Of a DNA stretch of 64,000 bases, positions 58,933 to 62,680 are shown in pieces. Numbering within the stretch: the first letter of the stretch is position 1; each line of letters opens with the position of its first letter. Position numbers and translations under genes: made by a program. Where the stretch lies: assembly GCF_022869165.1 (NCBI RefSeq), contig NZ_CP094929.1, positions 2,108,001 through 2,172,000 of the forward strand. The letters are read 5' to 3'. The DNA comes from Sphaerochaeta associata (GTDB lineage Bacteria > Spirochaetota > Spirochaetia > Sphaerochaetales > Sphaerochaetaceae). The notes under the pieces are model-generated. The model made no database searches and had not been told where the DNA came from. It worked only from the letters and a program-made list of their open reading frames with translations.

Positions 58933-59762
58933 TTTACGCCTCCCTTCAGAAACTCGGCAAAGAGCTGGCCGATGCCTTCACTGGCGATATAGCGCTTGTA
59001 ATCTGCGCTGCCGATGCTGTCATCACCAGCTTTAAGGGCGTGCTGCACAGCCAGTTGGACATCTTCGCGGGTTGTCAATTCGCCGTTCTCGATGGCATTC
59101 TCTACGTTGCTGAGCCGCTGAACGCCGCTTCCGTGTACTGCGGCGAACACCCGTACATGGTCGATGACCTGCTCGCTGTTCAGGGTCGCCCCGAAGCCCA
59201 CATGCACCGCACTGCGGTTCTGTACACTGGTGGCATACCTTTTGGAACCGACGAACCGGATATCCTTGGAGAGACTTACCGCCAGCAACAGCGTGCCGCT
59301 GAACTGCTGATGATAGGTATGGTATTCCCTGATGGGGATGTTGTCCTCGCTGTACGCACCGCCTTCGGTAAGGTTGGCTGTCAGCAATCGGCAGCGTGAG
59401 GCAAGCAAAGCCGGCGCGAGATAGGAGTGGTCGCTCATCAGGGCAAGGTTGCCGCCGATGGTGGCCATGTTTCTGCGGGTGAAAGAACCACAGGTCGATG
59501 CTGCGTCCTTGAGCCACTGGGGAATAAGATCCGATTCGATCAGTTGTTGCAGTGTAACCATGCTGCCGATACGGATGGTTGAACCTTCGTCGGTAATGGT
59601 ATCCAAGCCTAGCTTCGCCAGGCTGATGGCACACTTTACCTCGACAGTGGAATTGAGCCTATTGATCTCCGTTCCTCCGGCGTACCATACACTCTTCACT
59701 TTATTACGCTTCAGTCTGAGGGCTTCCTCGGTATCCGTAGCAATGAGAAATTCCTGAATCAT
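58929..59762 (-). CDS. ygfM: FAD-binding subunit of a molybdenum hydroxylase (YgfM type)
   Basis: 277 aa, FAD_binding_5 family. VKSVWYAGGTEINRL is the FAD loop, followed by GSMVTLQQLIES, AASTCGSFTRRNMATIGGNLAL and a C-terminal CO-dehydrogenase-flavoprotein-like domain. It would pass electrons from XdhD. ATG 59762 overlaps the upstream aminohydrolase stop as ATGA and its own stop overlaps xdhD's start, so all three genes are translationally linked. Confidence 0.9.
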   Translation of the reverse strand: MIQEFLIATDTEEALRLKRNKVKSVWYAGGTEINRLNSTVEVKCAISLAKLGLDTITDEGSTIRIGSMVTLQQLIESDLIPQWLKDAASTCGSFTRRNMATIGGNLALMSDHSYLAPALLASRCRLLTANLTEGGAYSEDNIPIREYHTYHQQFSGTLLLAVSLSKDIRFVGSKRYATSVQNRSAVHVGFGATLNSEQVIDHVRVFAAVHGSGVQRLSNVENAIENGELTTREDVQLAVQHALKAGDDSIGSADYKRYIASEGIGQLFAEFLKGGVK

Positions 59763-61147
59763 ACAATCTCTCCTCTGGCAGCCATTTCCATCATCCGCTT
59801 GCTGATCGCATTCGCTTTCTGGGCAAGCTCCTGTTCGTCGAAGCCGACCAGCTGCCCGCGGTCGACTACAACCTTCCCATTGATGATCGTATAGTCGGTA
59901 TTGTGATTGGTTCCGCAGAAAAGCAGACTGGCCACCGGGTCGCTCTGGCTTCCTGCATACGGAAGTGTCGATACATCGAAAATTGCCAGGTCTGCAGCCC
60001 ATCCCTTCTCAAGTCTTCCGACCTTTCCAAAGTTGAGCAGTTTTGCTCCCCCCTCGGTTGCCATCGAGAAGGCCTGGCTTGCAGTAAGTGCGTCAGATCC
60101 GTAGCGGACGCGCTGCAGCAACATTGCCTGACGAACTTCCGCAAGCATGTCGGAACTGTCGTTGCTTGCACTGCCATCGACGGCAACAGCAACGTTGATC
60201 CCCATGCCAAGCATCTCCTTGACCCTGCAGATGCCGCTTCCCAATCTCATGTTGGAGGAAGGACAGTGTGCAATGTGAGTCTTGGTCTGTTGAAGAATCT
60301 TCAGTTCCTCGTCATTGAAGTGGATGCCATGGGCGTACCATACATCCTCACCGATAAGTCCGCACTCCTGCATCAAGGCGACCGGACGCATGCCGTACAT
60401 CTCCTGGCAGAAATCGGCTTCGTCGTATGTCTCGCAGAGGTGGGTATGGAGCCGCACCCCGTACTTGCGGCCAAGTGCTGCAGTCTCCTTCATCAAGCCC
60501 TTGGTTACGCTGAACGGACTGCAGGGGGCTAGTGCAATTTTATGCATGGCATCCGGGGCGTTGTCATGATAGGTCTTGATGCACCGCTCACTGTCCATAA
60601 GAATCTCATCTTCGGTCTGTACGACGCTATCGGGAGGCAGCCCTCCATCCTTTTTACTCAAGCTCATCGAGCCTCGGGTGGGACTGAAACGCATGCCAAG
60701 GGTATCGGCCGCTTCAAACTGCAGACCCATCAGATCCCCTTTGAATGAGCGGGGATAGAGGTAGTGATGATCGGTGGTAAGCGTGCAACCGGTCTTCATC
60801 AGCTCTGCCATAGCCAAGAGCGATGAATGATACACGGCGTCTTCGTCGACGTATTTCCAAACCTCATAGAGAAATTTCAGCCAATCAAAAAGCTTTGCAT
60901 TCTGCACAGCGGGATGGTTGCGGGTAAGCGTTTGGTAAAAATGGTGATGGGTGTTTACCAGGCCCGGGATGACCACATGCTTGGAACAATCAATCGTACG
61001 AACTTTCCCTATGGCTTGCAGGTTCCCGGTGGGAGCGATGGCCTCCACCTTGTTCCCAACAATCAAAAGGTCGGCACCATGATACTGGGGACCGTCGAAT
61101 GTGGGTTGGAGGCAGTAGATGTTTTTCAATAGAAGCGAGGAACTCAT
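59759..61147 (-). CDS. 8-oxoguanine deaminase-like aminohydrolase (AtzB/TrzN group)
   Basis: This 462-aa amidohydrolase has NTHHHFYQTLTRNHPAVQNAKLFDWL (metal His pair and substrate loop), TTDHHYLYPR, FSPTRGSMSLSKKDGGLPPDSVV, which is diagnostic of 8-oxoguanine deaminases, HTHLCET, HGIHFN and AVDGSASNDSSDM (catalytic Asp). It likely turns 8-oxoguanine into urate; guanine or a related purine is possible. It begins the tightly coupled trio with ygfM and xdhD. GGAG lies 10 bases before ATG 61147. A long structured leader precedes it. Confidence 0.78.
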   Translation of the reverse strand: MSSSLLLKNIYCLQPTFDGPQYHGADLLIVGNKVEAIAPTGNLQAIGKVRTIDCSKHVVIPGLVNTHHHFYQTLTRNHPAVQNAKLFDWLKFLYEVWKYVDEDAVYHSSLLAMAELMKTGCTLTTDHHYLYPRSFKGDLMGLQFEAADTLGMRFSPTRGSMSLSKKDGGLPPDSVVQTEDEILMDSERCIKTYHDNAPDAMHKIALAPCSPFSVTKGLMKETAALGRKYGVRLHTHLCETYDEADFCQEMYGMRPVALMQECGLIGEDVWYAHGIHFNDEELKILQQTKTHIAHCPSSNMRLGSGICRVKEMLGMGINVAVAVDGSASNDSSDMLAEVRQAMLLQRVRYGSDALTASQAFSMATEGGAKLLNFGKVGRLEKGWAADLAIFDVSTLPYAGSQSDPVASLLFCGTNHNTDYTIINGKVVVDRGQLVGFDEQELAQKANAISKRMMEMAARGEIV

Positions 61148-61424
61148 GCCTTCGAATCTCCTTTGATAGGCAGGATGCGGCTGTATCCAATGCTTTGTGA
61201 AACCATGGAGAGCCGATCATGCTGTTACTCGGCTTCGGCATGCGGGCGTTCCGCAAGGAAGGAGTGGAGAGTAAGGGGTCCAATCCACTACCTTGGTTCT
61301 CTCGATACCGCCACATCAGGCAGAGCCCCTTCTGCGTCTGAACGGCGTTCCCCATTGTCTCTTGTAAAATACAACGGAGAGACTCAAACTTCAATCAGCC
61401 ACAAGGTGCGTACCTTGTGGCTGT
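61148..61424 (-). ncRNA. Structured 5' leader of the 8-oxoguanine deaminase operon (candidate regulatory RNA)
   Basis: The 318-base gap 61148-61465 is full of inverted repeats and has no coding signal. In plus coordinates: AGCCGA/TCGGCT (61211-61216, 61229-61234); TGCGG/CCGCA (61241-61255); CAAGG and AGTGGA pairing with TCCACT and CCTTG (61254-61295); CGCC and GCAGA pairing with TCTGC and GGCG (61309-61347); GTCTC-TTGTA pairing with TACAA-GAGAC (61357-61383). A perfect 12-bp hairpin (61396-61423) lies at the predicted 5' end. It matches no riboswitch I recognise, so a purine- or cofactor-sensing role is inference. Confidence 0.5.
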
Positions 61425-61433
61425 AGTATACCA
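61425..61433 (-). promoter_or_regulatory. Extended -10 promoter of the 8-oxoguanine deaminase operon
   Basis: On the minus strand TGG then TATACT (61425-61430), with no good -35. It would start the RNA within the perfect 12-bp hairpin 61396-61423, which could alternatively be the terminator of the preceding ygeY gene. Confidence 0.4.
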
Positions 61434-61465
61434 TATCAAGCTTTCCGGTTATACCGTCGAGCTTG

Positions 61466-62680
61466 CTACTTCTCCAACGAGTAAGGAAGCATGGCGTAGA
61501 AAGCGGCACAAATCTCCAGGTCGTCGACACGGTTGATCTCGTTCGGCGCATGAGCCTGGGCCTCATCACCAGGGCCGAAACCAATGGCGGGAATCTTATG
61601 TCGACCGGTGGTTGCAACCAAGTTGGTCGAGAAGGTCCACTTATCCACGACCGGTTTCTTGCCGAACAGTGCTTCGTGTCCTGCCACGCCGGCGACTACC
61701 AACGGATGGTCGGCATCGATTTTCCAGGTCGGGAAGTACAACTCCTGGGAGTACTCCTTCTTGGTCCAACCGATCTTCTCATAGTTGGGCATCTCAACGA
61801 CGATGGCCGATGGATCGTCACCGGTTGCCTTGCTGATATAGTCGCGGACCTGGCTGATGGCCAAATCTGCATCCTCACCCCAGGTCAAACGACGGTCGAG
61901 GTAGAGCATGGCATAGTCGGCAACCGCGCACTGGCTGGGCCCCTTCACATCCATCTGGCTGACAGTGATGGTTCCCTTGCCGAGGAACTTCTCGGCATCC
62001 GGCTGCAGGTCCTTGTTAAGCTGCTCGATGGCCAAGGCTGCCTTTGCCGCCTTGTAGGCTGCGCTGACTCCGCGTTCCGGGGCGCTGCCGTGGCAGGAGA
62101 TGCCCTTGAGGATGGCACGGATTTCCATACGACCGCGGTGTCCGCGATAGAGGCGGCAGCTGGTAGGCTCGGTGGAAACCACCAAGTCGGGGCGGAAGTT
62201 CTCCTCTTCAATCAGGTACTTCCAGCACATGCCGTCACAATCCTCTTCCATGACGGTGAAGGTGAAATAGACACTATACTCACCACCATAGCCGAGTTCC
62301 TTGAGGATTCGTCCGGCGGTGATCATGGAAGCTGCACCACCCTTCTGATCGCTTGATCCACGTCCCCACACCTTTCCGTCCTTGATCTCTCCACTGAACG
62401 GATCGAAATCCCAGTTCTTCAGGTTGCCGACTTCAACGGTATCGATATGCGCATCGAAGGCGAGTTTCTTCGGACCGTTGCCCACGCGGCCGATCACCGA
62501 ACCAAGTCCATCAATACGAACTTCGTCAAACCCAGCTTCTTCACAGAGGGTGACGATAAGGCGGCAGACATCCTCTTCCTGGGAGCTATAGCTCTTGGTC
62601 TGTACCATTTTCGAGAGATTGAGAGCCGTGTAATCACGATACTCGGCAGCTTTTGCCCTGATCTGTTCCTGAATTGTCAT
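61466..62680 (-). CDS. ygeY: YgeY-type M20 peptidase/deacylase (selenium-linked cluster)
   Basis: This 404-aa M20-family metallohydrolase has LAFDAHIDTVE (zinc His/Asp), VWGRGSSDQKGGAASM, VMEEDCDGMCWKYLIEE (catalytic/zinc Glu pair), STEPTSCRLYRGHRGRMEI and GFGPGDEAQAHAPNE at the C-terminus. It matches YgeY of the E. coli ygeW-xdhD region, proposed to cleave an intermediate of purine breakdown. It lies 47 bases after ssnA with an AGGGG ribosome site. The substrate is not established here. Confidence 0.9.
   Translation of the reverse strand: MTIQEQIRAKAAEYRDYTALNLSKMVQTKSYSSQEEDVCRLIVTLCEEAGFDEVRIDGLGSVIGRVGNGPKKLAFDAHIDTVEVGNLKNWDFDPFSGEIKDGKVWGRGSSDQKGGAASMITAGRILKELGYGGEYSVYFTFTVMEEDCDGMCWKYLIEEENFRPDLVVSTEPTSCRLYRGHRGRMEIRAILKGISCHGSAPERGVSAAYKAAKAALAIEQLNKDLQPDAEKFLGKGTITVSQMDVKGPSQCAVADYAMLYLDRRLTWGEDADLAISQVRDYISKATGDDPSAIVVEMPNYEKIGWTKKEYSQELYFPTWKIDADHPLVVAGVAGHEALFGKKPVVDKWTFSTNLVATTGRHKIPAIGFGPGDEAQAHAPNEINRVDDLEICAAFYAMLPYSLEK

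Follow-up and report, generated by a model that had tools for sequence, protein, structure and literature searches.

The Locus Among Described Systems

In Escherichia coli, the reductive urate pathway proceeds through XdhD-YgfM, which converts urate to yanthine by reduction, with SsnA and YgeY acting downstream, and the corresponding cluster comprises xdhD-ygfM, ygfK, ssnA, hyuA, and ygeW/X/Y (PMC12507026). Two kinds of leader RNA are also relevant for comparison: riboswitches such as the purine, xanthine/urate (NMT1), and molybdenum-cofactor (RF01055) classes, which are conserved structured cis leaders preceding metabolic operons, and transcription attenuators, which are hairpin-rich leaders before catabolic operons. 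The text of PMC12507026 mentions neither riboswitches nor Sphaerochaeta, and literature searches combining Sphaerochaeta with riboswitch, or riboswitches with xanthine dehydrogenase, returned no papers.

The window analyzed here is a stretch of 64,000 nt from the 3.55 Mb genome of Sphaerochaeta associata (GCF_022869165.1, contig NZ_CP094929.1), and all positions refer to it. An intergenic gap at 61148-61465 separates ygeY (61466-62680, minus strand) from the gene encoding 8-oxoguanine deaminase (Table 1); as both flanking genes lie on the minus strand, the leader RNA is read from that strand, and the gene order is ssnA, ygeY, the leader (61465-61148), the deaminase gene, ygfM, and xdhD. The homologues of ssnA, ygeY, ygfM, and xdhD around the leader resemble the E. 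coli urate cluster (PMC12507026), whereas the extra 8-oxoguanine deaminase and the loss of xdhACB are particular to the present spirochaete locus. Because the flanking genes match the reductive urate pathway, a purine or urate intermediate is a reasonable first candidate ligand, and nothing more than that.

Within the gap lie an extended -10-like element, a hairpin of 12 bp at the predicted 5′ end of the RNA, and a strong fold reaching the Shine-Dalgarno sequence AAGGAG. The first-pass annotation, made from the sequence alone, had placed a hairpin-rich leader before the deaminase gene, and the gap indeed folds strongly on the minus strand. Its location before a purine operon holds insofar as the leader precedes deaminase-ygfM-xdhD; however, it is internal to the ssnA-ygeY-leader-deaminase-ygfM-xdhD cluster rather than at its head, and a separate extended -10-like element immediately precedes it. 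The leader shares with riboswitches a pseudoknot and a possible competing Shine-Dalgarno pairing, but in contrast to those classes it is limited to one target and one genus, matches nothing in Rfam 15, and has a core akin to a former coding sequence. Unlike transcription attenuators, it has neither a conserved terminator nor a conserved leader peptide.

Table 1. Features of the leader and the first downstream gene, in window coordinates.
Feature	Position	Strand	Remarks
Extended -10-like element TATGGTATACT	61425-61435	-	near-invariant columns in 16 species; present also before xdhA in G111
P1, 12-bp 5′-terminal hairpin CAGCCACAAGGU/ACCUUGUGGCUG	61396-61423	-	99% of cells paired; 4 pairs changed on both sides
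P2, hairpin CCGUUGU..ACAAUGG	61352-61377	-	94% of cells paired; 3 pairs changed on both sides
P3, hairpin UCAG-AC-GCAG / CUGC-CUGA, with invariant GGGGCUCU in loop	61316-61341	-	lower stem paired in 17-18 of 18
Pseudoknot 5′ strand AAGGGG, in P3 loop	61326-61331	-	pairs with CCCCUU in 18 of 18 sequences
Pseudoknot 3′ strand CCCCUU, in P4 loop	61273-61278	-	partner of AAGGGG
S + P4, hairpin AAGGU..GUGGA / UCCAC..CCUU	61259-61294	-	includes half of invariant CCUUCCUUGCGGAAC; two P4 pairs covary significantly
P5, hairpin UGCGG-AACGC-CCGCA	61241-61255	-	invariant in 16 species; UGCGC/GCGCA in G098 and G102
Invariant UGCCG	61236-61240	-	directly 3′ of P5
P6, predicted hairpin	61170-61222	-	immediately 5′ of Shine-Dalgarno; folds in all main clades, sequence differs
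Shine-Dalgarno AAGGAG of deaminase gene	61158-61163	-	AAGGAGAT invariant in 16 species; alternative partner is core UUCCUU
8-oxoguanine deaminase gene	59759-61147	-	first gene 3′ of leader; NCBIfam NF006055, 605 bits (cutoff 532)

Structure, Covariation and Conservation of the Leader

The TATGGTATACT element is a putative leader promoter; a sigma-70 two-hexamer scan found no promoter. Just upstream of this element, clade-specific inverted repeats (CGGTATAACCG, CCGGTATTACCGG, GGTGTCnnnGACACC) occur in the window (61446-61456, minus strand) and in the same place in loci L009, L010, and L019-L021, for which an operator or a weak ygeY terminator are candidate readings. The predicted fold of the minus strand reached -117.5 kcal/mol (z -3.97, a fold matched by none of 100 shuffles), the plus strand folded less strongly (z -3.12), and the mean z of 21 homologous leaders was -3.6. 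The perfect 12-bp hairpin reported in the first-pass annotation is present as P1 at the 5′ end of the minus-strand leader, while its series of at least five nested or adjacent inverted repeats over 61211-61383 was reproduced only loosely; the helices supported by evolution are P2-P6. Because the loop of P1 varies between 3 and 10 nt among species while its arms hold, we read P1 as an RNA hairpin and rejected a protein operator.

Comparison of related Sphaerochaeta leaders preceding the same gene, the check that had been suggested for this locus, yielded covarying helices with compensatory changes. On an alignment built from sequence only, RNAalifold predicted 45 pairs, 16 of them with compensatory change; once the pseudoknot had been added, the paired fraction of structure cells was 90.9%, compared with 44-52% when the partners were slid, and the covariation score was matched by none of 500 shuffles. 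For P1 and P2 together, 97% of cells were paired. In a hand alignment of 18 cores, all six pairs of the pseudoknot AAGGGG:CCCCUU were kept in 18/18, including the variants GAGGGG:CCCCUC and GAGGAG:CUCCUC, with exchanges from A-U to G-C and from G-C to A-U and one significant pair. The lower stem of P3 showed several standard pair types and two significantly covarying pairs. A tree-based null was made by replaying inferred substitutions along the gene tree; on the hand alignment, significance was reached by 5 of 29 structure pairs and by 7 of 9287 other pairs. This alignment had been drawn up knowing the structure, and the counts from the sequence-only alignment are therefore the more secure evidence of covariation. 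A variant core occurs in L147 (G102) and L148 (G098), where the pseudoknot strand GAGGAG lies beside a CCGC/GCGG hairpin and not in its loop; the P6 region is very short in L148, and in L147 the contig ends at this region.

A DNA search of 139 genomes of the family found matches in 21, all within the genus Sphaerochaeta. Across species, ygeY lies on one side of the locus in all cases and the deaminase gene on the other in all but one (L023). Searches with R1, a covariance model built on the core, returned one true copy per genome and added the divergent members G098 and G102; there was no R1 match in other genera among 395 genomes of the class. In about 45 more distant loci, the sequence ahead of the deaminase gene contained no homologue, and a phage collection gave no match. 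Candidate second genomic copies (L143-L146 and L149) were weak, lay inside coding genes where examined, and were rejected.

In ygeY and the deaminase gene, fourfold degenerate sites have reached saturation, with 9/256 invariant across 16 species and a pairwise divergence from this genome of 0.32-0.60. In the leader, 92/345 columns are invariant in 16 species, with runs of 8, 15, 10, and 8, among them GGGGCTCT, CCTTCCTTGCGGAAC, and CCGCATGCCG. Conservation of the leader is thus shown to be well above neutral. No reading frame is conserved across the homologous leaders, in agreement with the earlier finding of no protein-like frame in S. associata; frames and stops differ between homologues, a conserved leader peptide was rejected, and the constraint on the leader is therefore not on a peptide. 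The leader had no match in Rfam 15 at any useful score, nor a covariance-model match to known riboswitch families, in line with the earlier remark that it does not match the purine, TPP, cobalamin, or molybdenum-cofactor riboswitch cores; at permissive thresholds, the only hits were chance ones to eukaryotic, bacterial sRNA, or CRISPR families.

Relationship of the Core to xdhB and the Second Scar

In two Sphaerochaeta species (G111 and G093), intact xdhA, xdhC, and xdhB stand in this order between the P1-P2 segment and the deaminase gene, and in outgroup genera the order is likewise xdhA-xdhC-xdhB-deaminase, with the genes intact. These three genes are absent between P1-P2 and the deaminase gene in S. 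associata, and a close xdhB orthologue was found in only 2 of 26 genomes of the genus. The P3-P5 core is similar in sequence to the 3′ end of xdhB: compared with the G111 gene, z values were 4.6-6.7, and none of 200 shuffles scored as high in any of the eight Z/W-clade species tested. The core gave 36-48 against xdhB, while control windows of another gene gave at most 22.5. The P5 region aligns with xdhB codons ..SFLA..SPHAMPEY.., and locus L022 retains SPHAVPMYCRTAAEQ beside SPHAMPEYRRTSTKR. With ordinary local alignment, the similarity was borderline for most species. In the intact 3′ end of xdhB in G111 (L180), nine-base complementary arms CAGAAGGAC/GTCCTTCTG, resembling P6, lie inside the coding sequence; they are absent in G093.

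The origin of the leader RNA thus seems to lie in what was left of a deleted xanthine dehydrogenase gene, and the sequence comparisons provide good evidence for the descent of the leader from the lost gene. A decayed gene had been named in the first-pass annotation as a finding against a regulatory RNA. The core does align with a decayed xdhB 3′ end, collinear with the gene that is intact at the same place in relatives (not significantly so in the short core of G098), but its evolution is not neutral and the RNA is structured and conserved; the alternatives of a riboswitch-like RNA and a decayed gene are each partly right.

A separate xdh loss was found in G105, G106, and G097, where a longer, conserved, and structured scar shows clear xdhB similarity. 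This second scar is 76-88% invariant near its 3′ end, with fourfold sites of G105 differing from those of G106/G097 by 0.41-0.43. Its last 180 nt are conserved and contain compensatory changes, for example GGAUAC/GUAUCC to GGAUGC/GCAUCC and GCUGCC/GGCAGC to GCUGUC/GACAGC. In the second scar, a short open frame (MAIWPIGQPICSD..) follows P2 in loci L027, L028, and L167; it resembles the beginning of xdhA and is probably what is left of the gene for the large subunit.

A rooted tree built from ygeY and the deaminase gene placed the clade with intact xdh genes within leader-bearing clades, and two basal clades are long-branched. With protein data, a single xdh loss was rejected (AU 0.0095, from a smaller number of replicates than is advised); with codon positions 1+2 it was not (0.074). 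Either a single loss of xdhACB was followed by its regain, or the root was drawn to the two long-branched basal clades, a possible long-branch attraction. The sequence evidence for the origin of the leader is independent of which loss history holds.

Proposed Function and Alternative Readings

The pseudoknotted leader RNA is real, conserved, without an Rfam family, and most likely regulatory. We consider it probable that it is a cis-acting structured mRNA element helping to control the expression, most likely the translation initiation, of deaminase-ygfM-xdhD. In the mechanism proposed, xdhACB would have been deleted from between the promoter-P1-P2 segment and the deaminase gene, and what remained of xdhB would have been co-opted, or retained, as a folded RNA. 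Within the pseudoknotted core, the invariant CCUUCCUU would be held by pairing of its first half with AAGG; opening of the core would free UUCCUU to pair with the Shine-Dalgarno AAGGAG, and core stability would then set ribosome access and hence translation.

The state with UUCCUU paired to the Shine-Dalgarno is predicted to cost about 3-10 kcal/mol in 16 of 17 leaders, pseudoknot energy excluded, and in the remaining one (L010) the alternative pairing is favored; the six-base pairing is absent from the second scar. The predicted Shine-Dalgarno partner differs between clades, therefore no single switch is conserved, and a universal Shine-Dalgarno switch was rejected; competition between core and Shine-Dalgarno is possible in most leaders. 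No conserved terminator precedes the deaminase gene among the homologous leaders, nor, outside L022, was a clear example found before this first gene of the terminator hairpin with a U tract that characterizes attenuators. Of the riboswitch or attenuator layout originally proposed, the conserved, covarying cis leader RNA before the same gene is supported and the attenuator is not. In L022 (G103), the P6 loop, between the core and the Shine-Dalgarno, contains a terminator-like hairpin, GCTGCTGAGCAGCC, with a run of seven T after it; the hairpin is clear only in this locus, weaker in L025, and not conserved elsewhere.

We consider less likely a passive leader, in which the remnant left after gene loss would serve only to stabilize the mRNA and leave the start of the deaminase gene open to ribosomes, its structure being maintained with nothing sensed. 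The strong 5′-terminal hairpin P1 also stands before intact xdhA, and both separate scars kept a hairpin beside the Shine-Dalgarno, as such a passive role would predict; however, the nucleotide identity of the loops and of CCUUCCUUGCGGAAC is conserved more than stability alone requires. Another reading is a metabolite-binding riboswitch of an undescribed class, with the P3-P4-P5 core as aptamer and a purine-pathway compound or cofactor governing Shine-Dalgarno access. The leader is a conserved structured RNA in the 5′ leader of its gene, as riboswitches are, and its compact pseudoknot with invariant loop bases (GGGGCUCU, GGAAC, UGCCG), its single cis location ahead of a catabolic operon, and two competing folds a few kcal/mol apart all speak for this reading. 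Nevertheless, we regard this riboswitch as rather doubtful, given its restriction to one operon in one genus, the absence of a clearly conserved expression platform, and a core that resembles former coding sequence, so that an aptamer would need to be of recent origin.

The RNA element may also predate the gene loss: a control element of the deaminase gene would already have lain across the 3′ end of xdhB and been retained in the scars, an explanation compatible with the functional readings above. Two independent xdh losses each retained the xdhB 3′ end, and synonymous differences between the intact genes are fewer in the last 50 xdhB codons (15/34 versus 115/183; p 0.056, suggestive only). 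We hold this older origin only tentatively, since there are just two intact sequences, the p value is not significant, and the sequence motifs of the core are missing from G093, whose xdhB matches few leaders. A plain pseudogene remnant with hairpins arising by chance would account for the alignment of the core with xdhB, yet it is very improbable in view of the invariant blocks despite saturated neutral divergence and the significant covariation. The boldest possibility seems to us unlikely: a class of riboswitch, built de novo out of what was left of a deleted xanthine dehydrogenase gene, would respond to a ligand belonging to that same purine/urate pathway, and the congeners with intact genes would represent the "before" state.

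The origin of structured regulatory RNAs is largely open because their precursors are seldom visible. In this genus, a single locus offers an intact gene, a separately decayed scar, and a conserved RNA for comparison, and the emergence of a structured leader out of a dead gene is therefore directly testable. For Sphaerochaeta, the leader also suggests that an anaerobic operon for purine/urate degradation carries a regulatory element.
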